DNA of 22,380 bases from a virus: IMG/VR virus record IMGVR_UViG_3300020436_000104, positions 1-22,380 of that record. One strand, given 5' to 3'. Below are positions 4,912 through 22,380 of the stretch, one piece after another (position 1 is the first letter of the stretch; every line of letters begins with the position of its first letter). The notes beneath the pieces were generated by a model that saw only the letters and a program-made list of their open reading frames with translations, was not told the origin of the DNA and did not search any database. The position numbers and the translations under genes were made by a program.

Positions 4912-5460
4912 ATGCTTGAACATTTTCATATTGATTATGATTTTTCTTTTATTTTAAATAATCTTTATAAAGGTTATAGATCAGATGTATTGATAAACGC
5001 TGTTAAGTTGCCTGTAATGGTAGAAGATTACGAACCATTTGGCGGATTAAGTAAATCATATAATGAACACAATATCAACCTTTTTCGTAGAGAATGGAAA
5101 AAGAAAATTTTTGATTTAAAAAATATTCAAAAACAATTAGATTTAAAACATGTTTTGACTATTACATCTCTTATACAACAACCAGGAAATACTTTGCCTG
5201 TACACAGAGATAAACATTATGAAGCTGATAAAAAAGGATTGCAAAATTTACAAGGTTCATTTGTTAGAGCAAATATTTTTTTAGAAGATTGGAAACCAGG
5301 CCATACACTACAATATGAGATAAAAGGAAAATGGCATAGCTGTATAAATTGGAAAGCTAACGACGGTATTGTATGGGATCAAACGCATTATCACCTTAGT
5401 GGAAATTCTGGCATGCAGGATAAAGTAACTTTACAAATAAGTGGGGTCAGAAATGAATAA
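4912..5460 (+). CDS. Fe(II)/2-oxoglutarate oxygenase-like protein, aspartyl/prolyl hydroxylase type
   Basis: A 182-residue protein with the outline of a small cupin-fold (double-stranded beta-helix) oxygenase. The metal triad candidates are H98 and D100 in PVHRDKHY and H161 in HYHLSGNSG. A basic residue follows ten positions later (K171, before VTLQISG), where the 2-oxoglutarate carboxylate is usually bound. The segment VRANIFLEDWKPG and the WDQTHYHLSGN segment resemble the aspartyl/asparaginyl beta-hydroxylase family. Such enzymes hydroxylate proteins or small molecules; the substrate is not evident. Its coding end overlaps the sulfotransferase-like gene by 8 nt, so the pair is probably cotranslated. 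It follows a strong terminator, so it opens a new unit that runs into the large terminase gene. Confidence 0.6.
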   Translation: MLEHFHIDYDFSFILNNLYKGYRSDVLINAVKLPVMVEDYEPFGGLSKSYNEHNINLFRREWKKKIFDLKNIQKQLDLKHVLTITSLIQQPGNTLPVHRDKHYEADKKGLQNLQGSFVRANIFLEDWKPGHTLQYEIKGKWHSCINWKANDGIVWDQTHYHLSGNSGMQDKVTLQISGVRNE

Positions 5461-6244
5461 ATTTTTTATAATAGGCCTCCCACGTACTGGCACTACAGCC
5501 ATAGCAAAGACCCTTAACAATTACGATAATATTTACTTGTACAGTAAATCAGCAGAAGATTATAAAGACAGTGAAAGCGAGCTGTTTGAACCTTTCGCAT
5601 TAGGAAATTTAAAAGTTGAATTAGATTGGCAAAACAAATTAGAAAATGTAGTAGAGGTAGAATTTAATAGTAAATATAACGGATTTAAATTGATTCCAGG
5701 TGACGTTGTTTATGCTGGTGATTTAATAAGAGATTATAATTATGATCCATTAATAGTGATAAGAAAAAATATCTGGAAAAGTCTTTTTAGCAAAATAGGA
5801 GCAGTTTATATTTCAAATGACGAAAAAACAATAGATGCGTATACAAAATCAAGCAAAAATACAAAAGCTGACTTTAGTAATTTTAGACATTTTCTCCCAA
5901 GATTTATTTTTTTCCTTAAACAATATATTAAGCTTATGTACGAAGTAGAAACAAAATTTCAAACATCTATTGATAAAATATACTTTGAAGATTTTATAAA
6001 ACCAAATAAAACTTACGAAAAAATAAACAACTATTTTGGGCAAGAGATTATTTTTAATTTAAACTACAATGATGACTACAATGTTGTAGACCAATATTTA
6101 ACAGATGCTAACTGGACAGAAGAGCAATATAAAATACTAGCAAACGAAGTAAATGCAACAGTGCAAAGGTTTGATATAATGGAAAACAAAAAAGCTCCAT
6201 TATATTTGAAAGAAATTTTACTAGATAACCCATTTGTAAAGTGA
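5453..6244 (+). CDS. Sulfotransferase-like protein (P-loop, PAPS-dependent type)
   Basis: A 263-residue protein with a sulfotransferase-style 5'-phosphosulfate loop at residues 8-15 (GLPRTGTT), directly after an FFII strand. A 3'-phosphate-binding candidate is VIRKNIWKSLFSK, with R104 and S110. These are the two PAPS-binding signatures of the family. It probably transfers sulfate to a hydroxyl group; the acceptor is unknown. The ATG at 5453 is preferred: it gives the usual short N terminus before the first strand and a GGGG at 5442-5445 could serve as Shine-Dalgarno. An in-frame GTG at 5441 would add four residues. It overlaps the oxygenase-like gene by 8 nt, which suggests that the two enzymes act on the same pathway or target. 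This link is inference. Confidence 0.65.
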   Translation: MNKFFIIGLPRTGTTAIAKTLNNYDNIYLYSKSAEDYKDSESELFEPFALGNLKVELDWQNKLENVVEVEFNSKYNGFKLIPGDVVYAGDLIRDYNYDPLIVIRKNIWKSLFSKIGAVYISNDEKTIDAYTKSSKNTKADFSNFRHFLPRFIFFLKQYIKLMYEVETKFQTSIDKIYFEDFIKPNKTYEKINNYFGQEIIFNLNYNDDYNVVDQYLTDANWTEEQYKILANEVNATVQRFDIMENKKAPLYLKEILLDNPFVK

Positions 6245-6267: not shown

Positions 6268-7848
6268 ATGGCTAAAAGTTTAGATGGTGTATTAACTAAA
6301 AAAGCAAACAAAAAAGAAACCTTTACCAATGAACAAGTAGAGGATCTTTTAAAGTGTATGGATCCTAAAAATGGATATGATTATTTTGCACGTAACTTTG
6401 CGTATATTCAGCATCCTGTAAAGGGAAAGCTACTATTTGAACCATACGAGTATCAAGATAGACTACTTAAAAGTTATCACGATCATAGATTTAACATTAA
6501 TATGTTACCAAGACAAACAGGAAAAACTACCTGTGCTGGTATATACTTGTTATGGTTTGCCATGTTTAATCCAGATCAAACAATATTAATTGCCGCACAC
6601 AAATATACTGGGGCACAAGAAATAATGCAACGTATAAGGTATGCATATGAACTTTGTGCAGATCATGTACGTGCAGGAGTTACAAACTACAACAAAGGTA
6701 GTATTGAGTTTGAAAACGGCTCGCGTATTGTAAGTGCTACAACAACTGGCAACACAGGACGTGGTATGAGTATTTCATTACTATACTGCGACGAGTTTGC
6801 ATTTGTACAACCTAATGTTGCTACAGATTTTTGGACATCAATATCTCCTACACTAGCAACAGGTGGTCGTGCTATTCTCACAAGCACACCTAACTCAGAT
6901 GAAGATACATTTGCCACTATATGGAAACAAGCAGAAGACAAATTTGATGCAAACGGTAATGAACAAGAAGTTGGCATCAATGGATTTCATAGTTTCCGTA
7001 GTTATTGGCAGGAACATCCAGATAGAGATGATGAGTGGAAAGAAGAAGAACTTGGACGTATAGGCGAAGAAAGATTTAGACGTGAATACGACTGTGAATT
7101 CCTAGTATTCGACGAAACACTTATAAGCTCATTAATACTTACAGAAATGGAAGGAGGCTCTCCATTAGTAAATATGGGTCAAACACGTTGGTATAAGAAA
7201 CCAACTGCTGAATTTACATACGCTGTTGCACTTGATCCTAGTATGGGCACAGGCGGAGACAATGCGGCTATACAGGTATTTGAATTACCTAGTTATGAAC
7301 AGGTGGCTGAATGGCAACATAATACTACAGCTATACCCGGACAAATTAGAGTACTGTCAGATATATGCAGTTACATAACGAAAGAAACAGGAAATGAAAA
7401 CGGTCTTTATTGGAGTGTTGAGAACAATGGTATAGGAGAAGCGGCCTTAATAGTAATTAACGATTTTGGTGAAGAAAATATACCAGGACTATTTGTAAGT
7501 GAACCAATGCGTAAAGGACATGTACGCAAGTTTCGTAAAGGGTTTAATACTACTCATGGTACAAAAATAACAGCTTGCAGTAGACTAAAAACTATGATTG
7601 AAAATGATAAAATGATTATACACAGTAAACCATTTATATCAGAATTAAAAAATTATGTTGCAACTGGATCTAGTTATCAGGCTAAATTAGGCCAAACAGA
7701 TGATTTGATAAGTGCCGCTTTGTTAGCAATTAGAATGATGGCTGTACTTAAAGATTGGGATCCTCGTATATATAATACCTTTTCACAAGCTGAAGAAATA
7801 CAAGATTATGAGCCTCCTATGCCTATCTTCATAAGCCAAAACTATTAA
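6268..7848 (+). CDS. 17: Terminase large subunit gp17 (packaging ATPase and headful nuclease)
   Basis: A 526-residue packaging motor protein. The ATPase domain shows Walker A RQTGKTT at 82-88, Walker B LLYCDE at 171-176 with the catalytic Glu at 176, and coupling motif TST at 206-208. The C-terminal RNase H-like nuclease shows D323 (ALDPSMG), E385 (SVENNG) and the D478/D479 pair (QTDDL), which fit the catalytic acidic triad of T4 gp17. It is shorter than T4 gp17 (610 residues), as in marine relatives, but has all key motifs. AAGGAA lies 5 nt before the ATG. It follows the sulfotransferase-like gene by 23 nt, rather than gp16 as in T4. Confidence 0.95.
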   Translation: MAKSLDGVLTKKANKKETFTNEQVEDLLKCMDPKNGYDYFARNFAYIQHPVKGKLLFEPYEYQDRLLKSYHDHRFNINMLPRQTGKTTCAGIYLLWFAMFNPDQTILIAAHKYTGAQEIMQRIRYAYELCADHVRAGVTNYNKGSIEFENGSRIVSATTTGNTGRGMSISLLYCDEFAFVQPNVATDFWTSISPTLATGGRAILTSTPNSDEDTFATIWKQAEDKFDANGNEQEVGINGFHSFRSYWQEHPDRDDEWKEEELGRIGEERFRREYDCEFLVFDETLISSLILTEMEGGSPLVNMGQTRWYKKPTAEFTYAVALDPSMGTGGDNAAIQVFELPSYEQVAEWQHNTTAIPGQIRVLSDICSYITKETGNENGLYWSVENNGIGEAALIVINDFGEENIPGLFVSEPMRKGHVRKFRKGFNTTHGTKITACSRLKTMIENDKMIIHSKPFISELKNYVATGSSYQAKLGQTDDLISAALLAIRMMAVLKDWDPRIYNTFSQAEEIQDYEPPMPIFISQNY

Positions 7849-10175: not shown

Positions 10176-10985
10176 TTGGATTGTCAAACAGATATATGTA
10201 GACTAGTGGATCAAGGGTATGATCTAACAGATCCTTATGTTATAAAAAGTTTATATAAAAGCAAATATAGTGCTAAAGAAATAGCTGCAACTATTAATCA
10301 ATGTTTTGATATAGACATTTTAATTGAAAATCAATTTGTTCAATCATTAATAGATTTACACAAAGATAGAAATTTAGAAAATCTTCCGGATGCAAACAAT
10401 TACTGGCATAAACTTAATATAGAATTAGACCAACCAATAATAGATATAAAAGATTATATATTAGATGATCCGTATAGACCTAACGAGCATGCATCATATA
10501 ATCCTGACACTGGCGGAGTTTGGACATTAAATTCTTATAAAGTGTTCAGCAAAAAATGGCTAGAATACCTAAAAAATGATTTAAAAATTTTTCCTGGACA
10601 TATACAACTATTTTATAAAAATAAAAATGCACAACACTCAGTAGCACATGTAGATGTAAGTATATTAGGTACATTACACGGCGGAGCAATTAATTGGACA
10701 TTAGATCCTGATGATGCTGAGATGGTTTGGTACGAAACACCGCCCTATGAACACAAAAATGAAATAAAAACAACGGCTCATAACCAAAGTAAAGAATGGC
10801 CTATTGCAGGACTAACAGAAGTTGATAGATGCAATATAGGTCAAGAAGCTACACTTGTGCGTACTGATGTTCCTCATACTGTAGATATCGGAAGTACTGA
10901 TAGGTGGGCAGTAAGTTTTAGAATTATATCTGCACAAAGTTGGCATACACATGTCACTGTACTAGAACAATATTTTCAAAAATAA
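10176..10985 (+). CDS. Second Fe(II)/2-oxoglutarate oxygenase-like protein (TTG start proposed)
   Basis: A protein of up to 269 residues with cupin-type oxygenase signatures: H158-x-D160 in SVAHVDVS, H234 in DVPHTVDIG, and R243 or R249 in the strand DRWAVSFRI, which fits an HxD...H...R arrangement. The N-terminal 80 or so residues are helical and belong to no domain I recognise. No ATG exists in the N-terminal region; the TTG at 10176, one nt after the preceding TAA, gives the longest product, and a GTG at 10206 is an alternative. No strong Shine-Dalgarno is visible, so reinitiation after the upstream gene is plausible. It is clearly different from the oxygenase-like gene at 4912. Substrate unknown. 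Confidence 0.55.
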   Translation: MDCQTDICRLVDQGYDLTDPYVIKSLYKSKYSAKEIAATINQCFDIDILIENQFVQSLIDLHKDRNLENLPDANNYWHKLNIELDQPIIDIKDYILDDPYRPNEHASYNPDTGGVWTLNSYKVFSKKWLEYLKNDLKIFPGHIQLFYKNKNAQHSVAHVDVSILGTLHGGAINWTLDPDDAEMVWYETPPYEHKNEIKTTAHNQSKEWPIAGLTEVDRCNIGQEATLVRTDVPHTVDIGSTDRWAVSFRIISAQSWHTHVTVLEQYFQK

Positions 10986-11095: not shown

Positions 11096-12079
11096 ATGGC
11101 TACATTAGCAGAAATCCGAGCAAAGCTCAAAGAACAAGAGTCACGCACAAGCGGCAACTCTAACAACACTGGCGATAACGCAATTTACCCATTTTGGAAT
11201 ATGAAAGAAGGCGGAAGTGCAACACTACGTTTCCTTCCTGATGGGAATACTGATAACACTTTTTTCTGGACAGAAAGATTGTTAATTAAACTTCCTTTTG
11301 CAGGGATAAAAGGTGAAACGGATTCACGTCCTGTACAAGTTCAAGTTCCATGTATGGAAATGTATGGGGACTCTTGTGAAATTTTAAGCGAGGTACGTGG
11401 TTGGTTTAAAGATCCATCTTTAGAAGATATGGGTCGTAAGTATTGGAAAAAGCGTTCATATATTTTCCAAGGATTTGTAACTGATAATCCATTGGGCGAT
11501 GATACTACGCCAGAAAATCCAATTCGTAGATTTATTATTGGTCCGCAAATTTTTCAAATTATTAAGGCGGCACTAATGGATCCAGATATGGAAGAACTGC
11601 CAACAGATTATACTGCTGGAGTAGATTTTAGACTAAACAAATCCTCAAAAGGTGGATATGCTGACTACAGTACCAGTAATTGGGCACGTAGAGAACGTCC
11701 ACTAGATGATTCTGAAATGTCAGCAATTAACAAACATGGATTGTTTAATTTGTCTGATTATCTTCCTAAGAAGCCAGATGACGTAGCTGTAAAAGTTATG
11801 AAAGAAATGTTTGAAGCTTCTGTTGACGGTGAAGCATATGACGCAGATAAATGGGGTCAATACTTCCGTCCAAGTGGAATGGCGGCAAGAACAGGTGATC
11901 CAACTAAAGCGGCATCACCTAATGCAACTGCAACAAGCCAAAGTGCGCCAGCACAAGAGGCAAAACCTGTAGCTGAACCGGCTACACCTGTAGCTGATAC
12001 TACTACTTCTTCAGCAGGAGAAAGTGAAGATAAAGCCGCAGATATTCTTGCAATGATTCGTTCAAGACAGTCAAGCTAA
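11096..12079 (+). CDS. 32: Single-stranded DNA-binding protein gp32
   Basis: A 327-residue T4 gp32-type protein that coats single-stranded DNA in replication, recombination and repair. The N-terminal region (about 1-30) is basic and polar, as expected for cooperative binding. The OB-fold core begins with YPFWNMKEGGSATLRFLPDG and has the basic patch KKRS at 118-121 and RRFIIGPQIFQII at 144-156. The region 205-310 includes a Pro/Ala/Thr linker, and the tail ends in an acidic stretch ESEDKAADIL, the expected protein-interaction end. Only two Cys (86 and 94) are present in the whole protein, so the Cys3His zinc site of T4 gp32 is not complete. AGGAGG at 11081-11086, 9 nt before the ATG, predicts strong translation, fitting the high copy number of gp32. 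Confidence 0.88.
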   Translation: MATLAEIRAKLKEQESRTSGNSNNTGDNAIYPFWNMKEGGSATLRFLPDGNTDNTFFWTERLLIKLPFAGIKGETDSRPVQVQVPCMEMYGDSCEILSEVRGWFKDPSLEDMGRKYWKKRSYIFQGFVTDNPLGDDTTPENPIRRFIIGPQIFQIIKAALMDPDMEELPTDYTAGVDFRLNKSSKGGYADYSTSNWARRERPLDDSEMSAINKHGLFNLSDYLPKKPDDVAVKVMKEMFEASVDGEAYDADKWGQYFRPSGMAARTGDPTKAASPNATATSQSAPAQEAKPVAEPATPVADTTTSSAGESEDKAADILAMIRSRQSS

Positions 12080-12126: not shown

Positions 12127-13212
12127 ATGGCTAAATCATTTGATGTTAGTAAGTTCCGCAAGGACTTAACGAAAAGTATTACAGGTATGAGTGCAGGATT
12201 TAACGATCCTACTGATTGGATAAGCACTGGCTCATACGCACTCAATTATCTTATCTCAGGTGACTTTAACAAAGGTGTGCCTATGGGTAAGGTAACAGTT
12301 TTTGCAGGCGAATCAGGCGCAGGCAAATCATACTTTTGCAGTGGTAACATTGTAAAACATGCACAAGACCAAGGCATTTTTGTTGTGTTGATTGACAGTG
12401 AAAATGCACTAGATGAATCCTGGCTACAAGCATTAGACGTTGATACAAGTGAAGATAAACTTTTAAAACTTAATATGTCGATGATCGATGATGTAGCAAA
12501 GACTATTAGTACGTTCATGACAGACTATAAAGCTATGGACGAAGCAGATCGTCCTAAAGTATTGTTTGTTATTGATAGTTTAGGTATGTTATTAACACCT
12601 ACAGATGTTGATCAGTTTAACAAAGGTGATATGAAAGGCGACATGGGTCGTAAACCTAAAGCACTTACTGCTTTGGTACGTAACACTGTTAATATGATTG
12701 GTTCACATAATGTAGGACTAGTATGTACTAATCATACATATGCATCACAAGATATGTTTGACCCTGATGATAAAATATCAGGAGGACAAGGTTTTATCTA
12801 TGCATCATCTATTGTAGTTGCAATGAAAAAATTAAAACTTAAAGAAGATGAAGATGGTAATAAGACAAGTGATGTACATGGTATTCGTGCTGGTTGTAAA
12901 GTAATGAAAACTCGTTATGCAAAACCGTTTGAAGGTGTGCAAGTAAAGATACCATATGAAACTGGTATGAACCCTTACAGTGGATTGGTTGAGCTCTTTG
13001 AAAAGAAAGGTTTAATCGAGAAGCAAGGTAATAGGTTAAAATATACTACTAGCACAAACGAAGAAATACTCGAGTATCGTAAAAATTGGAATGGTCCACT
13101 TCTTGATCAAGTGATGTCGGATTTCGCACAAAAAGAAGCTAATTTGGTAAATACCTCTGAAGTAAACGAAGATTCTGATCACTTAATCGAGGAGACCGTT
13201 GTTAATGACTGA
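12127..13212 (+). CDS. uvsX: UvsX RecA-like recombinase
   Basis: A 361-residue strand-exchange protein that forms filaments on single-stranded DNA after displacing gp32. Visible motifs are Walker A GESGAGKS at 61-68, the segment LIDSENALDESWL at 88-100 (catalytic Glu region), and Walker B LFVIDS at 146-151. A DNA-binding loop region with GRKPKALTALVRN follows, and then CTNHTYASQD and the SGGQGFIYASS segment. T4 UvsX is about 390 residues. AGGAG (12117-12121) lies 5 nt before the ATG. It overlaps the next small gene, so the recombination genes are probably coupled. Confidence 0.93.
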   Translation: MAKSFDVSKFRKDLTKSITGMSAGFNDPTDWISTGSYALNYLISGDFNKGVPMGKVTVFAGESGAGKSYFCSGNIVKHAQDQGIFVVLIDSENALDESWLQALDVDTSEDKLLKLNMSMIDDVAKTISTFMTDYKAMDEADRPKVLFVIDSLGMLLTPTDVDQFNKGDMKGDMGRKPKALTALVRNTVNMIGSHNVGLVCTNHTYASQDMFDPDDKISGGQGFIYASSIVVAMKKLKLKEDEDGNKTSDVHGIRAGCKVMKTRYAKPFEGVQVKIPYETGMNPYSGLVELFEKKGLIEKQGNRLKYTTSTNEEILEYRKNWNGPLLDQVMSDFAQKEANLVNTSEVNEDSDHLIEETVVND

Positions 13213-13438
13213 AGAAGAGATAGTAGACATTTGGAATTTATTTAAAGAATATATTGACAAAAAGCAAATCGAGGTAGTAGCTGAAAAATATGTTGATCTT
13301 TTAGCAGACTACGGAGTATCTGATGAAACACTTGTATCTGCACTAGGCACTAGTACATCATTAGATGAAGCAATAAACTATTATCTTGACTCTGACGGAT
13401 TAGACGACGATGAGGATTTTGATGATGAGGATTACTAA
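13205..13438 (+). CDS. Small acidic protein coupled to uvsX (unknown function)
   Basis: A 77-residue protein from the ATG at 13205, which overlaps the uvsX stop by 8 nt and is 10 nt after GGAG (13191-13194); a TTG at 13199 would add two residues. Helices EEIVDIWNLFKEYIDKKQIEVVAEKYVDLLADYG precede a short TLVSALG segment, and the chain ends in a strongly acidic tail, DDDEDFDDEDY. I recall similar small genes directly after uvsX in marine T4-like phages, without a known role. The position and acidic tail suggest a partner of UvsX, gp32 or DNA, but this is inference. Confidence 0.7.
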   Translation: MTEEEIVDIWNLFKEYIDKKQIEVVAEKYVDLLADYGVSDETLVSALGTSTSLDEAINYYLDSDGLDDDEDFDDEDY

Positions 13439-13893
13439 TGGGATGGTACAGTGAAATATCGAGAGATGTTTCTAAGATTACAGATGCAGTAAATTACTTT
13501 GAAAACGAACTTCAACAAGCACGTCAAGAAGTAAAACTTAAAGGCAATGTAGAAAAGGCTGCTGCCGAAATGCCCGGTATAGTAGAACATCGATTCAATC
13601 AACTTCAAGAAATTGAAGCAATCCTTAATTACTTAAATATTGAGCTACGTAGATTGCGTAGCTCTTTGTTTAAAAAATATCTTGAAAATTATCAAAGATC
13701 GCTATCAAGCAGAGATGTTGAAAAATATGTAGACGGCGAGAGAGACGTAGTCGACTATGAAAAAATTATAAATGAGTTTGCTCTTATTAGAAATAAATGG
13801 TTAGGTCTTCTTAAAGGACTTGATCAAAAACAATGGCAAATTACAAATGTTGTTAAACTAAGAGTAGCTGGCATGGAAGATGCTAGTTTGTAA
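13438..13893 (+). CDS. Helical phage protein, possible UvsY-like recombination mediator
   Basis: A 151-residue, mostly helical, charged protein. Its ATG overlaps the stop of the preceding gene by one base (TAATG), so it belongs to the uvsX unit. The core has EHRFNQLQEIEAILNYL, a basic stretch LRRLRSSLFKKYLENYQR, the DVEKYVDGERDVVD segment, and a terminal VVKLRVAGMED. Size, helix content and the location after uvsX are compatible with UvsY, which loads UvsX on gp32-coated DNA. I cannot align it convincingly to T4 UvsY, however, and marine T4-like phages have another protein normally called UvsY. The call is therefore tentative; the gene itself is secure. Confidence 0.6.
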   Translation: MGWYSEISRDVSKITDAVNYFENELQQARQEVKLKGNVEKAAAEMPGIVEHRFNQLQEIEAILNYLNIELRRLRSSLFKKYLENYQRSLSSRDVEKYVDGERDVVDYEKIINEFALIRNKWLGLLKGLDQKQWQITNVVKLRVAGMEDASL

Positions 13894-13902
13894 CATTCGC
13901 AA

Positions 13903-13930
13903 TTGATGTGATATGACTCCTAATTATAAT
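13903..13930 (+). promoter_or_regulatory. Sigma70-like promoter ahead of the glycan cassette
   Basis: TTGATG (13903-13908) is separated by 16 nt from a perfect TATAAT (13925-13930). The first cassette gene follows 25 nt later behind an AAGGAG Shine-Dalgarno. This suggests that the cassette is transcribed by unmodified host polymerase. Confidence 0.6.
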
Positions 13931-13955
13931 AATTATATGTGCAAGGAGAATTTAA

Positions 13956-14738
13956 TTGTATACTATTGTTACAAGTTTGAACAAACAATATTGGAACTCA
14001 ACTTCTAAAATTAATATACAAAGTTGGGTACAATTTTTACCTCCCGAAGTAAAAATAGTTTTATATTCAGAAGATTTACTCGATTTAGATGGATTAGAAA
14101 ATAGAGTAGTTCTAAAAGACTTATATAAAACTTGTCCTAAGCTCGTAGAATTCAAAAAGTTACACAAGTATGATCCTCATTACAATGGTGAAGCGCCGGT
14201 CAAAGAAACTAAAAAATTTAAATGGAATGCAATTAAATTTGCACACAAAACGTTTCCTATATTTGAAGAAGCTAGAGTGTGTGGAACAAATTATTTAATT
14301 TGGTTAGATGCTGATGTATTAATGCATGATTATATAACTATGGAATGGCTAGGCGAATTATTTCCCGCAAAATCTTGTATATCATATTTAGGAAGACCGT
14401 CGAACACAAAAACAGCTTATGACGAATGCGGATTAATGGGTTTCAATTTAAAAACTCCATTAGCAAAAACTTTTCTAGAATCATATGAAGAATACTACGA
14501 AGGTAATAATCTAGATGAATTGAGAGAAACACATGACAGCTGGATATTTTATCAACTTAGATTAAGTTTTGAAAACGGGGGATATGAAGGCTTTAAAAAT
14601 CTTAATCCAACTCCAGTTAACAATAAAAGTCCATTTAACAATAGTGGAATAAATCAGTACATGGTTCATACTAAAGGAATGGGTAAAGAAAAACTACATA
14701 ATAAGTTTCTTAAACGGTTTAACATACAGAGCCTTTGA
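13956..14738 (+). CDS. GT-A-type glycosyltransferase (copy 1; TTG start)
   Basis: A 260-residue probable glycosyltransferase. It has a DxD metal/sugar-nucleotide motif at 118-120 (WLDADVLMH), preceded by FKWNAIKFAHKTFPIFEEA. The TTG at 13956 is chosen because AAGGAG (13943-13948) lies 7 nt before it and it gives the first strand MYTIVTSLN; no ATG is suitably placed. It is a paralogue of the gene starting at 21558, with shared PKLVxFK, FKWxAIxFAxKT, DAD, ECGxxGxNL and HDSxxF elements. It opens the cassette 63 nt after the recombination genes. It probably transfers a hexose or related sugar to a glycan or lipid acceptor; donor and acceptor are unknown. Confidence 0.65.
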   Translation: MYTIVTSLNKQYWNSTSKINIQSWVQFLPPEVKIVLYSEDLLDLDGLENRVVLKDLYKTCPKLVEFKKLHKYDPHYNGEAPVKETKKFKWNAIKFAHKTFPIFEEARVCGTNYLIWLDADVLMHDYITMEWLGELFPAKSCISYLGRPSNTKTAYDECGLMGFNLKTPLAKTFLESYEEYYEGNNLDELRETHDSWIFYQLRLSFENGGYEGFKNLNPTPVNNKSPFNNSGINQYMVHTKGMGKEKLHNKFLKRFNIQSL

Positions 14739-14739
14739 C

Positions 14740-15378
14740 ATGCATATACTGATAGCATGCGATCAAAACTATTACAGTAAATGGGGATTCAATCTTCTAA
14801 AAAGTATTAAAAAATATAATAGTCATTCTTGGTTAAACTTACACTGTCATATTATAAATTCGGATGAATATCACCCGGATTGGCGACTAGAAGATGTTGA
14901 CTATACAACAGAAGAATATGAAGATGTAACTATACCATACTTGCAAGGTGCAAGATTTTTAATAGCATCTAAAAAATTTAATACTAATGAACACGTAATG
15001 ATATTAGATGCAGATAGTATTTGCACAAGAGAATTTACTAAAGAAGAGTTTACCGATGTAACATCTAAAGTTACAGTGTTAAAACATCATAAAAAAAATG
15101 CAATACATCCTTGGCTATGCGGATTTGTTACATTAGGCACAGGATTATTTAGACAAGATTATGCTAACAACTTATTACAGACTGCAACTAGATCTTGGAA
15201 ATACGGCCATGATCAAGATATACTTTTAATGTTGCATGATGTACACCAGTATACTCCAGCACCTGTCGAATGGATATGCATGGGTAAAGCAAATCCTAAA
15301 AGTGTGTTTCTTACACTTAAAGGTGACAAACATAAAAACAATCCGAAGTATACGGATCAACTGAAAAGGTATTTGTAA
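14740..15378 (+). CDS. GT-A-type glycosyltransferase, GT8-like small form
   Basis: A 212-residue protein beginning with the strand MHILIACDQNYY and a helix WGFNLLKSIKKY, the usual N terminus of a retaining GT-A enzyme. DAD at 90-92 (VMILDADSIC) is the metal-binding motif. A WLCGFVTLGTGLFR segment and a GHDQDILLMLHD segment follow, matching the acceptor and late catalytic regions of such enzymes. It starts one nt after the previous stop, and its own stop overlaps the methyltransferase ATG by one base. It has no strong similarity to the cassette's other GT-A copies beyond fold motifs, so it probably makes a different linkage. Confidence 0.6.
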   Translation: MHILIACDQNYYSKWGFNLLKSIKKYNSHSWLNLHCHIINSDEYHPDWRLEDVDYTTEEYEDVTIPYLQGARFLIASKKFNTNEHVMILDADSICTREFTKEEFTDVTSKVTVLKHHKKNAIHPWLCGFVTLGTGLFRQDYANNLLQTATRSWKYGHDQDILLMLHDVHQYTPAPVEWICMGKANPKSVFLTLKGDKHKNNPKYTDQLKRYL

Positions 15379-15938
15379 TGACATTAGAACCCCATCTTGG
15401 AGGACACCAAGGAAAAACACACATAGACGAAGGCGCTTTACAATGGTTAGTTAACCTTGGCATTAAAAGTTTCATAGACATAGGATGTGGCCCAGGTGGA
15501 ATGGTAGAATTGGCTAAAAGTAAGGGATTACGTACTTTAGGCGTTGACGGAGATTATACATTAACACGTTTTGATCCTAATTATTTTGTAATACATGATT
15601 ATACTAAAGGAAGTCCTGTGATACAAGAGGATTATGATGTAGCATGGAGTGTAGAATTTTTAGAACATGTGGAAGAGCAATATATGGCAAACTACATGGA
15701 TACTTTTAAATGTGCAAAAACCGCAGTAGTTACATATGCACCTCCAGGATGGAATGGTCATCATCATGTTAATTTACAAGAAGAAGATTACTGGATTGCA
15801 CGTTTTGAAGAAAATGGATTCAGGCTAGACGAAAATAAAACAAAGTTTTTACGTAATAATTCTACACTCAATTTAGGCAAAAAAGGTAAAAAGGCATTTG
15901 TAAAAAACAGAGGATTATATTTCAATAATGTTGGATAA
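15378..15938 (+). CDS. SAM-dependent methyltransferase (class I, small)
   Basis: A 186-residue class I methyltransferase-like protein. Motif I is FIDIGCGPGGM at about 32-42, and the acidic residue ending strand 2 is in LGVDGD at about 54-59. Motif IV-like SVEFLEHVEE follows, with a VVTYAPPGWNGHHHVN segment. The C-terminal part after about residue 165 is basic. In this cassette the natural target is a sugar hydroxyl, carboxyl or amino group, but the acceptor is not visible. It overlaps the next gene by 11 nt. Confidence 0.7.
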   Translation: MTLEPHLGGHQGKTHIDEGALQWLVNLGIKSFIDIGCGPGGMVELAKSKGLRTLGVDGDYTLTRFDPNYFVIHDYTKGSPVIQEDYDVAWSVEFLEHVEEQYMANYMDTFKCAKTAVVTYAPPGWNGHHHVNLQEEDYWIARFEENGFRLDENKTKFLRNNSTLNLGKKGKKAFVKNRGLYFNNVG

Positions 15939-16848
15939 ATTTGTTGTAGGAATAAAAGGGTCTTATAGAACACACCCTCTTCCTGACTTGCCTAATTTTA
16001 AAGTTGTAGATTGGGAAAATCAAGACATTATTGAAAAAGCTGATGTATTTGTTCAAGCTAATATTTTAGAAAATAAATTTTTTAGAAAATTTAGAGCTCA
16101 ATATGAACATATAAGAGATAGCGGTAAACCATATATAGTTGTTGAAAGTAGTGTGTTTAGACGTAATATGCCTTTTCCTCCTAATCCTAAAGCATATCAT
16201 AGATGGAGTTGGACCAGTTACTTTCGAGACGAAGGAAACTATTGTAATGAAAACTGTCCTGATGATAGATGGAAGCAGATACAAAAAGACCAAAATATAG
16301 AAATAAAAGATTGGAAAAAAGGCGGCGAATATATTTTATTAGCAATGCAACGGCCAGGTGATAGTAGTCTAAAAAATTTAATGGCAAAGCACAAAACGTT
16401 TGACAACTTTATTGCAAATACTATTGCAGAAATACGCAAGTATAGCGACAGGCCTATTTTAGCTAGAATGCATCCTGCTAGAATGGATAGACAAAGACAA
16501 GCACTAGCTAAAATTGACACTAGTGGAATTACTGTAAGTAAAAATATGCACGGTTCAGGTAACTTAGAAGGAGGCGCAGGCTTATACGAAGATTTTAAAA
16601 ATGCATATGCTGTAGTTGGATTTAACAGTAATGCACTTACAGAAAGCATATGTGAAGGCATACCTACGTTTAGTTTGTGTCCTAGTTCAATGGCTTGGGA
16701 ATGTTCAAATAAAAACTTAAATACACTTGAAAACCTAGAGTATTTTGATAGACAACAATGGCTTAACAACTTAGGTTATTGCCAATGGAGAGAAGATGAA
16801 ATTGCTAGAGGTGATCCGTGGTATCACTTATTAAAAGGAATAATATAA
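15928..16848 (+). CDS. GT-B-like glycan protein, paralogue family member A
   Basis: A 306-residue protein with an N-terminal half containing an FVQANILENKFFRKF segment and a KPYIVVESSVF strand, and a C-terminal Rossmann-like half starting at GGEYILLAMQ (about 132). The C-terminal half has TIAEIRKYSDRPILARMHP at 165-183 and a GFNSNALTESICEGIPTFSL block, as in polysaccharide GT-B enzymes, where the last Rossmann domain binds the sugar nucleotide. The same blocks occur in the genes at 19781 and 20626. The family is not one I can name; the general outline resembles capsule and LPS glycosyltransferases. It overlaps the methyltransferase gene by 11 nt and ends one nt before the GSCFA gene. Confidence 0.5.
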   Translation: MLDKFVVGIKGSYRTHPLPDLPNFKVVDWENQDIIEKADVFVQANILENKFFRKFRAQYEHIRDSGKPYIVVESSVFRRNMPFPPNPKAYHRWSWTSYFRDEGNYCNENCPDDRWKQIQKDQNIEIKDWKKGGEYILLAMQRPGDSSLKNLMAKHKTFDNFIANTIAEIRKYSDRPILARMHPARMDRQRQALAKIDTSGITVSKNMHGSGNLEGGAGLYEDFKNAYAVVGFNSNALTESICEGIPTFSLCPSSMAWECSNKNLNTLENLEYFDRQQWLNNLGYCQWREDEIARGDPWYHLLKGII

Positions 16849-16849
16849 A

Positions 16850-17809
16850 ATGGCAAAAGCTAGATTAGCAAATGCTACTGCTAATTCAAAAGGTAGCGGA
16901 AAAATGTCAGCTGGTAACATAGACTTAGTTAAAAGTAAATGGCACACAAATAATTTAATAACTTATTTTCCTAAAGACAAATCTCAATTTGACGATCTTG
17001 AAAAGCTTGCAGAAGAATTCGTTTTTACAGGACATGGTCCTAAAAATCCTACTATACCTGCAGATGGTACAGTAGTTACAATGGGTAGTTGTTTTGCAGA
17101 AAGATTGCGTAACTGGTTAAAAGCAAATGGTAAGAATGCTGATTATATAAATGTTCCTGAAGGTCTTAATAATTCATTTGCAGTAAGACAATATCTTGAA
17201 TGGGCGTTAACTGGAGATCGTAGTTCAGATGCTTATTGGTATGATAATGACCCGCAAGCGGGTGCATATAAATGGGAGCCAGAAGATGAACAAAAGGCTC
17301 TCTTGGAGCATTTTAAAAAGACAAAAGGGGTAGTAGTTACATTCGGATTAGCAGAAGTATGGCGAGATAAAGCCACTAAACAAGTGTTTTGGCGTGGAGT
17401 ACCTGCAAAATATTTTGATCCAGACAAGCATGAATGTGTCACCAGCACAGTACAAGAAAACGTAGAAAACATGCAACGTATTGCAAATCTAATCCATACA
17501 TATGCCGGCGCAGACACACAAATTATTTTCACACTAAGTCCAGTGCCTTTAAATGCAACATTTATGGGTAGACCAACTATTATAAGTGACTGTGTGAGTA
17601 AAAGTATTCTGCGTGTAAGTTTAGACGAATTTTTAAATAATCATGTACATGAAAACATATACTATTGGCCTAGCTACGAAATGGTACGTTGGGTAGGAGC
17701 TCATACAGATTTCCCGACACTGTTTGAGGATAATACTCCAAGACACGTAAACAACAAAGTTGTGTCTATAATAATTAATAACTTTGTTAGAAAGTTTTTT
17801 GCAAAATGA
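16850..17809 (+). CDS. GSCFA-family SGNH-type esterase/acyltransferase-like protein
   Basis: A 319-residue protein carrying the name motif GSCFA at 79-83 (TMGSCFAERL), where the Ser is the likely nucleophile. FGLAEVWRD at 165-173, TLSPVPLNATF at 228-238, YWPSYEM at 272-278, and the late RHVN at 298-301 follow. These are the blocks of the GSCFA family, related to SGNH hydrolases, with H299 the likely catalytic His. Members are thought to handle acyl groups on glycans; in the cassette a role in adding or removing acetyl-type groups is plausible but unproven. AAGGA (16836-16840) precedes the ATG by 9 nt. The next methyltransferase gene overlaps its stop by 4 nt. Confidence 0.75.
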   Translation: MAKARLANATANSKGSGKMSAGNIDLVKSKWHTNNLITYFPKDKSQFDDLEKLAEEFVFTGHGPKNPTIPADGTVVTMGSCFAERLRNWLKANGKNADYINVPEGLNNSFAVRQYLEWALTGDRSSDAYWYDNDPQAGAYKWEPEDEQKALLEHFKKTKGVVVTFGLAEVWRDKATKQVFWRGVPAKYFDPDKHECVTSTVQENVENMQRIANLIHTYAGADTQIIFTLSPVPLNATFMGRPTIISDCVSKSILRVSLDEFLNNHVHENIYYWPSYEMVRWVGAHTDFPTLFEDNTPRHVNNKVVSIIINNFVRKFFAK

Positions 17810-18291
17810 TGATAGAGTTTGGCTGTGGTGAAACGCCGACACACCAAGACTATAAAACATGTGACATTAGAAATTTACCAGGTATAGACTTTGTTTGTCC
17901 TGCTTATGAAATTGATAAACACGTTGAGCCTAACACAGTAACACATATTTTTTCAAGACATTTTATAGAACATCTTACTTTTGAACAAGGAGAACGTTGG
18001 CTAAAGGCATGCTTTAAAATATTACGTTCCGGAGGACAAATGGACATCCGTTGTCCTAATATGGATTTCCATGTACATCAATGGCAAATAGGAAAAAATA
18101 TAGAACATGCAAGAGCTGGCTTTTGGGGTTGGCAAAGAGAGGCTGAAACTGGAGAGACTTGGGACTTACATAAAAGTGGATATAATTTTACGCAATTACA
18201 AAATATATTAACCGATAATGGATACACCAGTATTAGATCCTTACACAAACCAACTAACAAGCATCTAGGAGTTATTTCATACAAACCATAA
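17806..18291 (+). CDS. SAM-dependent methyltransferase, short class I type
   Basis: A 161-residue protein that begins directly at motif I (MIEFGCGETP), so the N-terminal cap of larger methyltransferases is missing. A KTCDIRN strand with an acidic residue at 20 follows, then SRHFIEHLTFEQGERWLKACFKILRSGG, the typical post-motif-IV helix and loop of Methyltransferase 11 relatives. A C-terminal strand LHKPTNKHLGVISYK closes the fold. Start and stop overlap with neighbours (ATG at 17806 inside the GSCFA stop region), so it is translationally coupled. Two methyltransferases in one cassette suggest two methylated positions in the product; targets unknown. Confidence 0.7.
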   Translation: MMIEFGCGETPTHQDYKTCDIRNLPGIDFVCPAYEIDKHVEPNTVTHIFSRHFIEHLTFEQGERWLKACFKILRSGGQMDIRCPNMDFHVHQWQIGKNIEHARAGFWGWQREAETGETWDLHKSGYNFTQLQNILTDNGYTSIRSLHKPTNKHLGVISYKP

Positions 18292-18315
18292 TGTTTAAAA
18301 ATTATAAAACACATA

Positions 18316-18323
18316 TATAAGTA
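18316..18323 (+). promoter_or_regulatory. Late-promoter-like octamer TATAAGTA before the start at 18329
   Basis: TATAAGTA differs from TATAAATA at one base and ends 5 nt before the ATG at 18329, the same geometry as at 498/511 and 4899/4912. It lies in the only longer gap (37 nt) within the cassette, and no Shine-Dalgarno is visible before this ATG. Confidence 0.4.
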
Positions 18324-18328
18324 TTAGC

Positions 18329-19108
18329 ATGGTAGAAAAGTACGTTCTTGTAACAGGTGGCTTTGATCCATTACATAGTGGTCACATTGCTTACTTTAAA
18401 GAAGCGAAAAAATTAGGTACAAAATTAATAGTAGGTTTAAATTCAGACGATTGGCTTGCTAGGAAAAAAGGCAGACCGTTTATGCCTTTTAGTGAAAGAC
18501 TTAGTATTATTAAAGAAATGAAAATTGTTGATAATGTAATTAGTTTTAATGATGCTGATAACACTGCATGCGGTGCAATATTTTATATGTTATCTACTAC
18601 AGGGTCAAGAGACAAAATAATATTTGCAAACGGAGGAGATCGAGAGCAAACAAATATTCCAGAATATAATATGTACAAAGATAACAAAAATGTTAGTTTT
18701 GTGTTTGGTGTAGGAGGTACTAATAAAGCTAACAGTAGTAGTTGGATACTAGACGAATGGAAAACACAAAAGACTGAAAGACAATGGGGCTATTGGCGGG
18801 TACTAGATCATAAACCTGAAAAAGGTTATAAAGTTAAAGAGCTTGTAATTTATCCTGGAAAAAGTTTAAGTGATCAAAAACATTTTAAACGTTCAGAGCA
18901 GTGGATGATTCTCGAAGGTTTTGTAGATATGGAGACCGAATATAACAATAACAAAGATCTAGTACAACTAAAGCCACATACTGCACCTTATGAAATAGAT
19001 AAAGGAGTTTGGCACAAAGCAAGTAATCCAGGTGATGAAAATGCTCATATACTTGAAATACAGTGGGGCAGTGAGTGCATAGAAGAAGATATAGAAAGAA
19101 GAGATTGA
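18329..19108 (+). CDS. Nucleotidyltransferase fused to mannose-6-phosphate isomerase-type cupin
   Basis: A 259-residue two-domain protein. Residues 1-130 are a cytidylyltransferase-like domain: GGFDPLHSGH at 10-19 holds the HxGH signature, LNSDDWL at 37-43 and an FANGGDREQTNIPEY block at about 99-113 follow, as in RfaE/TagD-type enzymes. Residues about 165-259 are a cupin like the isomerase domain of type II mannose-6-phosphate isomerases: PGKSLSDQKHFKRSEQW at 176-192, H229 in VWHKASNPG, and EIQWGSECIEEDIERR at the end. A sugar phosphate could be activated by the first domain; the cupin may isomerise or bind a sugar. No GDP-mannose pyrophosphorylase domain is present. The next gene's ATG overlaps its stop (ATGA). 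Confidence 0.75.
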   Translation: MVEKYVLVTGGFDPLHSGHIAYFKEAKKLGTKLIVGLNSDDWLARKKGRPFMPFSERLSIIKEMKIVDNVISFNDADNTACGAIFYMLSTTGSRDKIIFANGGDREQTNIPEYNMYKDNKNVSFVFGVGGTNKANSSSWILDEWKTQKTERQWGYWRVLDHKPEKGYKVKELVIYPGKSLSDQKHFKRSEQWMILEGFVDMETEYNNNKDLVQLKPHTAPYEIDKGVWHKASNPGDENAHILEIQWGSECIEEDIERRD

Positions 19109-19788
19109 TGAAAGTTTTTGTTGGATATGATACTAGAGAAGATATTGCTTACCAAGTTTGTAAGCATAGTATAGAAGTAAGAAATAAAAGTGTAGACGTA
19201 AAGCCACTTAAACAAAACGAACTACGAGAACAAGGTTGGTATACTAGACCTATTGATAAACTAGCGTCAACAGAATTTACTTTTACAAGATTTCTTGTAC
19301 CAGAATTATGTAATTTTAACGGATGGGCATTATTCTGTGATAGTGATATTATTTTTATAGAAGACATAAAGAATCTATTTGATCAAGCTGATAACAAATA
19401 TGCAGTAATGTGTGCTCAGCATGACTATACTCCCAAAGAAGGAGTAAAAATGGACGGGCAAACACAGACTGTTTATCCTCGCAAAAACTGGTCTAGTGTT
19501 GTTTTATTTAATTGCGGGCATCCAAGTAACACAAAATTAGATTTTAATTTAGTGAATGATCCTAATATCACAGGAGCATATTTACATAGATTTAGTTGGC
19601 TAGACGATTCAGAAATTGGAAAATTAAGTCACGAATGGAATTGGTTAACTGACTGGTACGAAGAAGGCAAAGATGGTTATCCTAAGGCACTTCATTTCAC
19701 AGAAGGAGGTCCTTGGTTTGAAAACTATCGTAATTGTAATTGGCATGTGGCTTGGAAGAATGAATTACAGGAAATGATGAATGGATAA
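19108..19788 (+). CDS. GT8-like glycosyltransferase
   Basis: A 226-residue protein starting at the ATG at 19108, which forms ATGA with the preceding stop; longer readings from 19075 would extend into the upstream gene. MKVFVGYDTRED is a typical first strand, EFTFTRFLVPEL the helix before the motif, and DSD at 78-80 (LFCDSDIIF) the metal-binding motif. NWSSVVLFNCGHPSN and HFTEGGPWF are late GT8-like elements, the last corresponding to the donor-binding His-Gly region. It overlaps the next gene by 8 nt. It probably transfers a hexose to the growing glycan; donor unknown. Confidence 0.72.
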   Translation: MKVFVGYDTREDIAYQVCKHSIEVRNKSVDVKPLKQNELREQGWYTRPIDKLASTEFTFTRFLVPELCNFNGWALFCDSDIIFIEDIKNLFDQADNKYAVMCAQHDYTPKEGVKMDGQTQTVYPRKNWSSVVLFNCGHPSNTKLDFNLVNDPNITGAYLHRFSWLDDSEIGKLSHEWNWLTDWYEEGKDGYPKALHFTEGGPWFENYRNCNWHVAWKNELQEMMNG

Positions 19789-20629
19789 TTTACAAGACAT
19801 GACCGGAGTAAATATTGAAAACTTCGATAATAAAATGTTGGCTATTGATACTAGAGATGCTATTGTAGGTTGTTTTGCACAAGGATGTCAGGCTGAAGAA
19901 ATAGCAGGCTGGAAAGATTTAAAAAATTGGGATACAAATATTCCTGTTGTGTTTAGAAGTATGGCACAAAGAAAAACAGTTAATATGTGCGAGAATCAAA
20001 AAAGGCCGTATTTTTATATAGACACAGGGTATATAGGAAATTTAAACAAAAAGAAACACTGGCATCGTGTTGTCCCAAATGGTATGCAACACAGTAAACC
20101 GAGATTTGATCTACCTAGTGATAGATTTGATAATTGCATTGATAGTCAAGATATAAGATTTAAGGGTTGGAGAAAAGATGGTGGACCTATTTTATTAGTA
20201 ACACCTTCCGATAAACCTTGTTTATTTTATGGAATAGAAAGAGAATCCTGGATTGAAAATACAATAAATGAAATAAAAAAACATACTGATCGAGAAGTGA
20301 TTGTAAGAAACAAAGGCTTAAGAAGAGATCGTGTAAGAGATAATAGCATATATCATCAATTTGAAGAAGATAATATTTTTGCAGTAGTAACTTATAATAG
20401 CATAGCAGCAACCGAAGCAATCGGCTTTGGCATTCCTTGTTTTACTTTAGCTCCAAATGCTGCAGACTTTGCATGCGGTACAGATTTAAGTAGGATAGAG
20501 AATCCTATATATGTAGAAGAAGAAAAAGTAATAGGCTGGCAAAACTGGTTAGGATACTGTCAGTATAATCCACAAGAAATGGTAGCAGGTACTGTGTTAC
20601 CTATGTTAAGGGAGTACGGAATAGAATGA
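19781..20629 (+). CDS. GT-B-like glycan protein, paralogue family member B
   Basis: A 282-residue relative of the proteins at 15928 and 20626. Shared blocks are KGWRKDGGPILLVTPSD before the second half, WIENTINEIKKHTDREVIVR in the middle, and NSIAATEAIGFGIPCFTLAP and WQNWLGYCQYNPQEM near the C terminus. The N-terminal half is more divergent (VFRSMAQRKTVNM and a RPYFYIDTGYIGN strand). It has no DxD motif, which fits a GT-B rather than GT-A fold. It overlaps both neighbours (8 nt with the GT8-like gene, 4 nt with member C). The usual HP after the middle strand is replaced by NKG, so its catalytic site may differ from members A and C. Confidence 0.5.
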   Translation: MDNLQDMTGVNIENFDNKMLAIDTRDAIVGCFAQGCQAEEIAGWKDLKNWDTNIPVVFRSMAQRKTVNMCENQKRPYFYIDTGYIGNLNKKKHWHRVVPNGMQHSKPRFDLPSDRFDNCIDSQDIRFKGWRKDGGPILLVTPSDKPCLFYGIERESWIENTINEIKKHTDREVIVRNKGLRRDRVRDNSIYHQFEEDNIFAVVTYNSIAATEAIGFGIPCFTLAPNAADFACGTDLSRIENPIYVEEEKVIGWQNWLGYCQYNPQEMVAGTVLPMLREYGIE

Positions 20630-21561
20630 CGATTACTGTAGCAAGTTACCTTATGGGAATACCTCCGGGTAACACCAATCCTGAAAAACCTGCTATTATT
20701 GTAAATGCAATTGAAGGAGTTTGGAAATGCGGTGATGAAGGAACTATTGTTACCGACTACAACGTTGTTGATGCAGATGTTGCGGTTATGCAAGGTTTTG
20801 TACATCCAGGAAGTAAAAGATCGCAACATTTAGATTTGCGTAGACGTGTAATAGAGCATCAAGTAAAAAGAGGTAAGCGTACATTAATTGTAGATGCTAA
20901 TTTATTTTTATATGCTGATCCAGGCAATAGTAACAAGTTTTTAAGATATAGTTATGATGGAATTTTTCCTACTACAGGAGAATATTGTAATGGAGCTGCA
21001 AATCCAGAAAGATGGCAAATTATAAGCAACAAGCTAGGTATAAGTTTGAAACCTTGGAAAACAAATGGGAATACAATACTAATTGCTTGTCAACGAGACG
21101 GTGGTTGGAGTATGGATAATCAACCTTTGTTACCGTGGGTAGTAAGGACAATACAAGAAATTAGAAAGTATTCAGATAGAGCAATAGTTGTAAGATTTCA
21201 TCCAGGAGATAAAAATCAAATGGAACATAAAAGATCAATTGCTAGATATAGATTACCTAATGTTAGAGTATCAAATTCAGATAACATAATGGCAGATATG
21301 CAACAAGCACATTGTTTAGTTAATCACAACTCAAGTCCAGGAGTTGTTGCGGCAATAGAAGGAGTACCTGTATTTTTAACTGATGCTCCAAGAAGTCAAG
21401 CGAAAGATGTTGCTCACACAAATTTTGCTGATTTAGAAAATATAACAAAATTCGATAGACAGCCATGGATAGAAAAGATGGCACAAATGCACTGGAGTTT
21501 AGATGAACTAAAAGACGGCACTGCATGGAAACATTTAAGAATTTGGGCAGATAAAAAATGA
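20626..21561 (+). CDS. GT-B-like glycan protein, paralogue family member C
   Basis: A 311-residue member of the same family as those at 15928 and 19781. Shared features include KPWKTNGNTILIACQRD, VVRTIQEIRKYSDRAIVVRFHP, NHNSSPGVVAAIEGVPVFLTD and a W-rich end (PWIEKMAQMHWSLDELKDG). The N-terminal half has IIVNAIEG, AVMQGFVHPG and TLIVDANLFLYAD strands. The Rossmann-like second half and the GVPVF block agree with a sugar-nucleotide or nucleotide-binding role. Members B and C are adjacent and overlap by ATGA, as expected for a tandem duplication that has diverged. The next gene also starts in an ATGA overlap. Confidence 0.5.
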   Translation: MTITVASYLMGIPPGNTNPEKPAIIVNAIEGVWKCGDEGTIVTDYNVVDADVAVMQGFVHPGSKRSQHLDLRRRVIEHQVKRGKRTLIVDANLFLYADPGNSNKFLRYSYDGIFPTTGEYCNGAANPERWQIISNKLGISLKPWKTNGNTILIACQRDGGWSMDNQPLLPWVVRTIQEIRKYSDRAIVVRFHPGDKNQMEHKRSIARYRLPNVRVSNSDNIMADMQQAHCLVNHNSSPGVVAAIEGVPVFLTDAPRSQAKDVAHTNFADLENITKFDRQPWIEKMAQMHWSLDELKDGTAWKHLRIWADKK

Positions 21562-22380
21562 CAGATATAACAGTCCTAACAACATTTCATGATGAAGGCC
21601 TTCAAGTTTATGGGCAAAGATTTTTAGATAGCTTTGCAAAAAACATTGATAAAAAAATAAAACTTTTAGTATATGCAGAAAATTGTAATCCAGTAAATCC
21701 TAATCCAGACCAAATTAAAATTCTAGATGCAATAGATTCTCTACCAAAGTTAGTAGCATTTAAAAATAGATGGAAAGATATACCTAAAGCAAACGGTATA
21801 CCTCCTGATGATATAAAAGCACGTAGACCTCGTGACTGGCACAAAGAGTTTAAGTGGGACGCTATACGCTTTGCTAATAAGACATATGCTGTTTATGATG
21901 CAGTACAGCGTTCTAAAGACTGGTGCGTATGGATGGATGCAGATACCTATGTGCATAGTCCTTTGGACTACAATAGTTTCCTAAACTTACTACCTAGTGA
22001 TTGTTGGATTACATATGTTGGAAGAGGTAAGGGATCGCAAACATGGCCTGAATGTGGATTTTACGGTTTAAATTTAAATCATCCTGTGTGTAATGAATTT
22101 ATGAAAGAATTCGAACGTATGTATGAAGATGCTGAAAATGGTATTTTTACTCTAGAAGAATGGCACGACAGCTATGTTTTTGGCCATATATTAAATAAGA
22201 TGAAATTAGACTTTCCTTCTGTATTAGATTACAGTGCAAACATTTATAATAACACTGCTAAGACAGGCGGTGGTGGTCATCCACTGATAAACAGTGAATT
22301 AGGTAAATGGCTAGATCATTTGAAAGGTGCAAGAAAGAAAGAAGGCCGTAGTAGAAATAAAGATTTAATGCAAAGCCGGC
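21558..22380 (+). CDS. GT-A-type glycosyltransferase (copy 2, partial at window edge)
   Basis: The ATG at 21558 overlaps the preceding stop (ATGA), and the frame stays open for 274 codons to the window end, so the C terminus is missing. It is a paralogue of the gene at 13956: PKLVAFK, FKWDAIRFANKTY, WMDADTYVH (DxD at 127-129), ECGFYGLNL and EEWHDSYVF all have counterparts there. The chain beyond about residue 215 differs, with a GGGGHP loop and a basic end near the edge. It is presumably another sugar transferase of the cassette. Together the two copies bracket the other nine genes. Confidence 0.65.
   Translation, partial: MTDITVLTTFHDEGLQVYGQRFLDSFAKNIDKKIKLLVYAENCNPVNPNPDQIKILDAIDSLPKLVAFKNRWKDIPKANGIPPDDIKARRPRDWHKEFKWDAIRFANKTYAVYDAVQRSKDWCVWMDADTYVHSPLDYNSFLNLLPSDCWITYVGRGKGSQTWPECGFYGLNLNHPVCNEFMKEFERMYEDAENGIFTLEEWHDSYVFGHILNKMKLDFPSVLDYSANIYNNTAKTGGGGHPLINSELGKWLDHLKGARKKEGRSRNKDLMQSR

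Follow-up and report, generated by a model that had tools for sequence, protein, structure and literature searches.

What would a phage do with a dozen genes for glycan synthesis, and on what would it place the product? The question is raised by the IMG/VR record IMGVR_UViG_3300020436_000104, a linear contig of 22,380 bases that was analysed entire (hereafter the window) and in which T4-type genes (tail tube, terminase large subunit, single-stranded DNA-binding protein (SSB), UvsX and UvsY) are found together with eleven open reading frames (ORFs), A to K. These lie on the plus strand at 13956-22380, with gaps or overlaps of -11 to +37 bp, and K is truncated by the end of the contig. The original prediction had described them as nearly contiguous, mostly overlapping genes that form a phage-borne cassette for glycan synthesis and decoration, and this was borne out: all of the ORFs are present and the cassette is real. 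The proposed tally of four GT-A and three GT-B glycosyltransferases (GTs) also holds (A, B, H and K being GT-A-type and D, I and J GT-B-type), because A and B have DxD motifs, A is homologous to K, D and I are homologous to J, and structure models, made for J and K only, gave the corresponding folds. Family matches likewise agree with two methyltransferases (C and F), a GSCFA protein (E) and a nucleotidyltransferase-cupin fusion (G). The answer that we favour, with confidence about evenly balanced, is that the cassette directs a serotype-like glycan, assembled in the cytosol by soluble enzymes and most likely placed on virion proteins.

A constant core and an exchangeable island between uvsY and uvsW

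The loci of relatives were gathered via E, G and UvsY, which provided 50 non-identical complete uvsY-uvsW intervals; these are not independent, as L002/L003, L083/L085 and some other pairs are near-duplicates. Relatives also revealed how far the cassette extends past position 22380: in L003 and L013 the next genes are a further GT-B-type gene (L), a gene of unknown function and UvsW, identified by Pfam. Since L directly follows K in these relatives, the full cassette here is of twelve genes (A-L). The glycan block fills the interval in all 50 relatives, with dozens of contigs repeating the gene order, so the dispersal as unlinked genes that would have counted against the original prediction was not seen in any of them. 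This fixed, linked arrangement excludes the acquisition of host lipopolysaccharide (LPS) genes one by one.

J, K and L were present in every interval, G in 49 and H in 49 (as a single gene in 32 and fused to I in 17). Fourteen intervals had been reached via UvsY alone, that is without selection for cassette genes, and all of them carry J, K and L; being drawn from the best 80 UvsY matches, they speak for this lineage only. The H-I fusion, a protein of ~567 aa with H at 6-218 and the I-like part at 311-557, occurs in L010, L042, L101 and 14 other loci, and K is inverted in 18/50 relatives. Fusion and inversion together suggest that the core exists in two architectures. In the cultured jumbo phages CBB, PA5oct, Sinorhizobium phage Phosso and Vibrio phage 2.275.O the genes for UvsX, UvsY and UvsW occur in order, with glycan genes absent between UvsY and UvsW; the stretch fetched from Agrobacterium phage Atu_ph07 has many small genes, none with a glycan annotation, and a GSCFA search in cultured phages gave no match. 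No earlier description of a uvsY-uvsW glycan cassette was found in a literature search of open-access papers.

The stretch from uvsY to G (A-F in the window) contains between 0 and 13 genes, belonging to about 90 families over the 50 intervals. The islands of relatives include many methyltransferases, GT25, GT29-like proteins, sulfotransferases, pyruvyltransferases, NAD-epimerases and FkbM methyltransferases, and those of L067/L078 encode glucose-1-phosphate cytidylyltransferase and CDP-glucose 4,6-dehydratase, both above NCBI cut-offs, as well as an RfbH-like aminotransferase with a score below its cut-off. The island of L083/L085 (385-9940) is unlike these GT and methyltransferase islands: its 13 genes include radical-SAM (S-adenosylmethionine), amidinotransferase-like and 2-oxoglutarate (2OG)-oxygenase-like genes, and it may make a different product.

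Genes of these last three kinds, present in a few islands, would fit a cluster whose product is a metabolite that contains sugar and is left free or secreted, or one that acts on a host protein, without any coat being formed; for certain clusters of jumbo cyanophages a role in secondary metabolism has been suggested (PMC7824862). However, five of the six constant genes are glycosyltransferases, which points to a multi-sugar chain, and we consider a role of this kind improbable.

Comparison of core identity with island content gave a Spearman rho of 0.10 (the pairs are not independent and no p-value is claimed). Some loci whose cores are 85% identical have disjoint islands, and others with cores at only 54-63% share an identical one. 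Relative to L003, B-E of the window have a synonymous divergence (dS) of 0.27-0.72, compared with 1.4-2.4 in UvsX, UvsY, J and K, which fits a recent exchange of B-E as a block between phages. Every measurable cassette gene was under purifying selection, with a ratio of nonsynonymous to synonymous change (omega) of 0.02-0.25 against L003/L004; for F against L004 the comparison was saturated and omega not measurable. Gene content, conservation, boundaries and mosaicism are thus read directly from the intervals, and phages exchange the variable set in a manner like that of bacteria with their surface-antigen genes.

Soluble enzymes and the likely acceptor

None of the 50 intervals contains a flippase, polymerase, exporter, ligase or initiating transferase, and a hydropathy scan found 0 polytopic proteins among the 572 that they encode (6 segments were found in the LysE control). 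The polytopic transporter, polymerase or ligase by which a Wzx/Wzy- or ATP-binding cassette (ABC)-type O-antigen or capsule export locus would be recognised was therefore seen in 0/572. With no flippase, polymerase, exporter or ligase encoded, the glycan would be completed in the cytosol, unless export by the host is borrowed.

The enzyme reactions, the identity of the sugars, the acceptor and the benefit we infer as follows. Soluble enzymes would assemble an oligosaccharide in the cytosol of the infected cell, the constant enzymes G-L activating and adding its inner part: G would supply a building block activated with a nucleoside diphosphate, and H and K (GT-A) together with I, J and L (KpsC-fold GT-B) would act as the transferases. 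The variable enzymes (A-F in the window) would attach the outer sugars, one of which may be a CMP-ulosonate such as 3-deoxy-D-manno-octulosonate (Kdo) via D, and also methyl or acyl-type caps, so that, with exchange of the variable block, related phages would differ in their outer glycans while having the core in common. The acceptor would most likely be a protein of the virion, to which the glycan would be attached in the cytosol, either ahead of particle assembly or in the course of it; the particle would thereby obtain a changeable sugar coat. If the glycan is indeed on virions, many related phages would have one core and wear exchangeable outer coats, much like the O-antigen serotypes of bacteria; in the sea this would matter for grazing, for phage serology, for receptor recognition and for the evasion of defences.

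The fixed and linked position, the constant core with its mosaic island, the purifying selection and the lack of polytopic proteins speak for this reading, as do the O-antigen-type genes in the islands of relatives, the beta-Kdo GT fold of J and motifs of D described below, and the capsid-glycosylation GT of a chlorovirus as the top match of K. The O-antigen-type genes and the Kdo-transferase features would also suit a cassette that remodels the host surface during infection (LPS core, O-antigen or capsule linker), so blocking competing adsorption or the loss of progeny to infected cells: CDP-glucose pathway enzymes, pyruvyltransferases and GT25 transferases are of O-antigen type, and in fold and motifs J and D match the capsule and LPS Kdo transferases. 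In addition, H homologs are frequently met in the genomes of marine Alphaproteobacteria, an H-I-K-D/J-like mini-cluster being present in two of them, and comparable cyanophage clusters have been interpreted in this way (PMC7824862). However, the genes for export, ligation and initiation are missing from all 50 intervals, and a constant core would require one host acceptor across all these phages. Because the core is common to phages with different islands, we favour a phage-borne acceptor, a virion protein, over the host surface, which we regard as a serious but lesser possibility.

Several points nevertheless weigh against a virion glycan. Soluble enzymes leave a lipid acceptor and host export possible, the enzymes of the LPS core and those of KpsC type being likewise soluble; the authors of the cyanophage study preferred modification of the host surface (PMC7824862); the match of K to a capsid-glycosylation enzyme of the chlorovirus PBCV-1 is tied with matches to GT6 and GT8-type enzymes; the test for membrane proteins was a hydropathy scan with one positive control; and both acceptor and glycan are predictions from the genes.

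In the alphaproteobacterial genomes L203 and L209 an H-I-TPR-K-D/J-like group lies amid housekeeping genes; the core may have come from such a cellular group.

Phages related to T4 glycosylate hydroxymethylated DNA, and phage GTs of diverse kinds are able to act on DNA (cited in PMC12619734). The enzymes of the cassette could similarly attach sugars to a hydroxymethylated base in the phage DNA, as a defence against restriction. However, C57, a 335-kb contig that is probably a near-complete relative (see below), is without a homolog of thymidylate synthase/hydroxymethylase (PF00303), the single PF00303 protein of G001 and that of G016, both large relatives, have Asn as thymidylate synthases do, and the island genes are of surface-glycan rather than base-modification type. 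As a hydroxymethylase was found neither in C57 nor in G001/G016, DNA glycosylation is disfavoured and seems to us very improbable.

KpsC-fold transferases with and without the nucleophile

In the VIA list for the J model, rows 1-15 were all KpsC, WbbB or KrkA (Z 14.0-11.8, with 14.0 for KpsC); the row after these had a Z of 11.1, with general GT-B folds at about 11. As judged from the model, J has the fold of the retaining beta-Kdo GTs KpsC and WbbB. D is homologous to J (hhalign probability 100), and so is I (Table 1). Searching the PDB by sequence, with the proteins D, E, J and K or with profiles of them, gave chance matches only.

The hallmarks of retaining beta-Kdo GTs are QXXXD, in which the Asp is the nucleophile, and (K/R)XHP (PMC10148158, PMC9587256, PMC12887879). 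Both are found in D, as QXXXD with Q141 and D145 and as RXHP with R180, H182 and P183, all invariant in 21/21 sequences. E73 is also invariant and lies 72 residues ahead of D145, which would be comparable to the general-base spacing of 74 in WbbB (PMC9587256). The motifs are in register with those of bacterial Capsule_synth proteins, QXXXD included, in an alignment of moderate probability (76%). Since both motifs are present and in register with these proteins, D may be a CMP-ulosonate transferase that draws on host CMP-Kdo.

The nucleophile Asp, present in D, is absent from J and L: J keeps the Q and RXHP and has Gly in its place in 51/51 sequences, and in L, which keeps RXHP, the residue is Ser in 51/51. 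The motifs of I are PSxK and RxK in 37/37, in place of QXXXD and RXHP. Both J and L are strongly conserved, and decay is therefore disfavoured; the substitutions suggest either other chemistry, another donor or another role. To our knowledge Asp-independent chemistry has not been described for the KpsC fold, and these families pose the enzymological question of how the fold functions without its Asp. A true particle serotype system, in which KpsC-fold GTs without the Asp nucleophile build a conserved virion glycan core and the outer cap is swapped as a block, is a tentative proposal that we think rather unlikely.

Other enzymes of the cassette

A and K are paralogous GT-A proteins, both with DxD (Table 1). 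The top match of the K model in VIA was the capsid-glycosylation GT of PBCV-1 (Z 13.9), which shows the fold only, because it was tied with bacterial and mammalian GT6 enzymes. A relationship of B to H was rejected, as hhalign gave 0.5% and no match. The cupin of G resembles that of mannose-6-phosphate isomerase, and homologs of G were found in 452 viral stretches; a PfkB sugar kinase was not matched among the cassette proteins scanned. GSCFA proteins being uncharacterised, acylation of the glycan via E is a possibility. In the profile search of the cassette proteins A, B, D, I, J and K had no Pfam family match. H most likely starts at ATG 19108 rather than GTG 19075, and A starts at TTG 13956, preceded by AGGAG.

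Table 1. Positions in the window of the cassette genes and of the phage genes that flank them.
Feature	Position	Strand	Evidence	Place
Terminase large subunit	6268..7848	+	PF03237/PF17289; 54% identity to PA5oct-type jumbo phages	context gene
SSB	11096..12079	+	41-52% to SSB position in CBB, Phosso, PA5oct, others	context gene
UvsX recombinase	12127..13212	+	phrog_97 2.8e-70	context gene
UvsY recombination mediator	13438..13893	+	phrog_231 1.4e-16	left boundary of cassette
A: GT-A-type transferase, K paralog	13956..14738	+	hhalign to K probability 100; invariant D118-A-D120, H238	variable island
B: probable GT-A-type transferase	14740..15378	+	D90-A-D92 invariant in 11 homologs; without Pfam match	variable island
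C: SAM-dependent methyltransferase	15378..15938	+	PF13489/PF08241 above cut-off	variable island
D: GT-B, beta-Kdo-transferase-like	15928..16848	+	Q141/D145, R180/H182/P183, E73; J homolog	variable island
E: GSCFA (SGNH-like) protein	16850..17809	+	PF08885 119 bits (cut-off 25); 34 viral relatives	variable island
F: SAM-dependent methyltransferase-like	17806..18291	+	phrog_5399 9e-5; weak PF08241/PF13489	variable island
G: HxGH-type nucleotidyltransferase and sugar-isomerase-type cupin fusion	18329..19108	+	PF01467 and PF01050	core
H: GT8-like GT-A transferase	19108..19788	+	PF01501 23.9 bits (cut-off 24.3); phrog_28018 1.5e-48; invariant D78, D80	core
I: divergent GT-B paralog of J	19781..20629	+	hhalign to J probability 99.8; PSxK/RxK 37/37	core, sometimes fused
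J: KpsC/WbbB-fold GT-B	20626..21561	+	model, predicted local distance difference test (pLDDT) 94.7; retains RXHP; invariant Gly160 in place of the nucleophile Asp	core
K: GT-A transferase with DxD	21558..22380	+	model, pLDDT 92.5	core; cut by contig end

Comparison with known glycan systems

Polymorphic glycan clusters have been described in jumbo cyanophages by Iyer et al. (2021; PMC7824862), who proposed a host-surface role against superinfection. Like the present locus they have a HIGH-superfamily nucleotidyltransferase, a cupin domain of sugar-isomerase type, several GT families and polymorphic content. The locus described here differs in its non-cyanophage lineage, its fixed uvsY-uvsW site and constant six-gene core, its fused nucleotidyltransferase-cupin protein, its KpsC-fold paralogs with a changed catalytic residue and the absence of a PfkB kinase from the window cassette. 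What is new relative to the cyanophage clusters is thus the other lineage, the fixed site, the constant core with a swapped island and the altered KpsC-fold enzymes.

The beta-Kdo GTs KpsC (GT107), WbbB (GT99) and KrkA (GT140) share with the cassette the fold of J, QXXXD and (K/R)XHP in D, and RXHP in J and L, but sequence identity is only 10-14%, J and L have Gly or Ser for the nucleophile Asp, and I is without both motifs. Capsid glycosylation in chloroviruses (A064R of PBCV-1 and others) similarly employs viral soluble GTs and methyltransferases, and K resembles the GT-A domain of A064R; here, however, the virus is prokaryotic, K is equally close to GT6-type enzymes and a glycoprotein is predicted from the genes. 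Bacterial O-antigen and capsule loci also combine a constant part with swappable, serotype-like GTs and with sugar-nucleotide and decorating enzymes, but the cassette has no flippase, polymerase, chain-length regulator, exporter or ligase.

Among cultured phages, Pelagibacter phage Mosig EXVC030M has adjacent K-H-I homologs with methyltransferases and a sulfotransferase (28-44% identity), and Caulobacter phage CcrColossus has J/L-, I- and H-like genes (about 22-34% identity). These are shorter sets at other genome positions, after a tail gene and ahead of lysis genes, in different phage families. With a related mini-set in a cultured SAR11 phage, Mosig EXVC030M, the question of the acceptor is open to testing now.

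The phage lineage

The window phage is represented by a 22-kb fragment only. Its terminase is closest, among cultured phages, to those of PA5oct-type jumbo phages, at 54% or less. The contig PBPT01000016.1 (C57, 335,231 bases) has the gene order of the window and the entire cassette, with a terminase 91% and UvsX 93% identical to those of the window, and is probably a near-complete relative of the window phage. The locus belongs to a lineage of T4-related jumbo phages that is uncultured, widespread and probably marine in habitat. The moraphages (PMC12619734) also have four core GT groups; they are mainly freshwater phages with predicted Bacteroidota hosts, and on these grounds we rejected equating the present lineage with them, the two being set apart by description only.

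C57 encodes tRNAs and a permuted transfer-messenger RNA (tmRNA) of the alphaproteobacterial family RF01849 (145 bits; gathering score 50). This phage-borne tmRNA, with the tag ANDNYAPEMAMAA, is at L284:2048-2355 (about 42,048-42,355 of C57 in G020) and hints at an alphaproteobacterial host, without proving it. C57 was binned in a metagenome-assembled genome (G020) labelled Neomarinimicrobiota, where the phage terminase occurs twice, on C57 and on C77; the bin is for this reason judged to be contaminated.

Expression and neighbouring genes

A sigma70-like promoter had been taken as a sign of early expression, and this was not upheld: TTGATG-N16-TATAAT at 13903 is one of 45 sigma70-like sites, shuffled sequences giving 50.9 +/- 8.2, and the gap between uvsY and A is just 2 bp in 6/13 relatives checked (L010, L013, L015, L020, L024 and L172). 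T4-type late promoters (TATAAATA) were uninformative, with 74 matches at <=1 mismatch where 85 were expected. As the cassette abuts uvsY in several relatives, it may share a transcript with the recombination genes.

Three further ORFs, at 4912-5460, 5441-6244 and 10176-10985 of the window, lie among the packaging and structural genes near the cassette. Those starting at 4912 and 10176 resemble 2OG-oxygenases by eye, without a Pfam match, and the remaining one is a sulfotransferase-like gene (weak PF13469); their products could act on virion proteins or on the same glycan.

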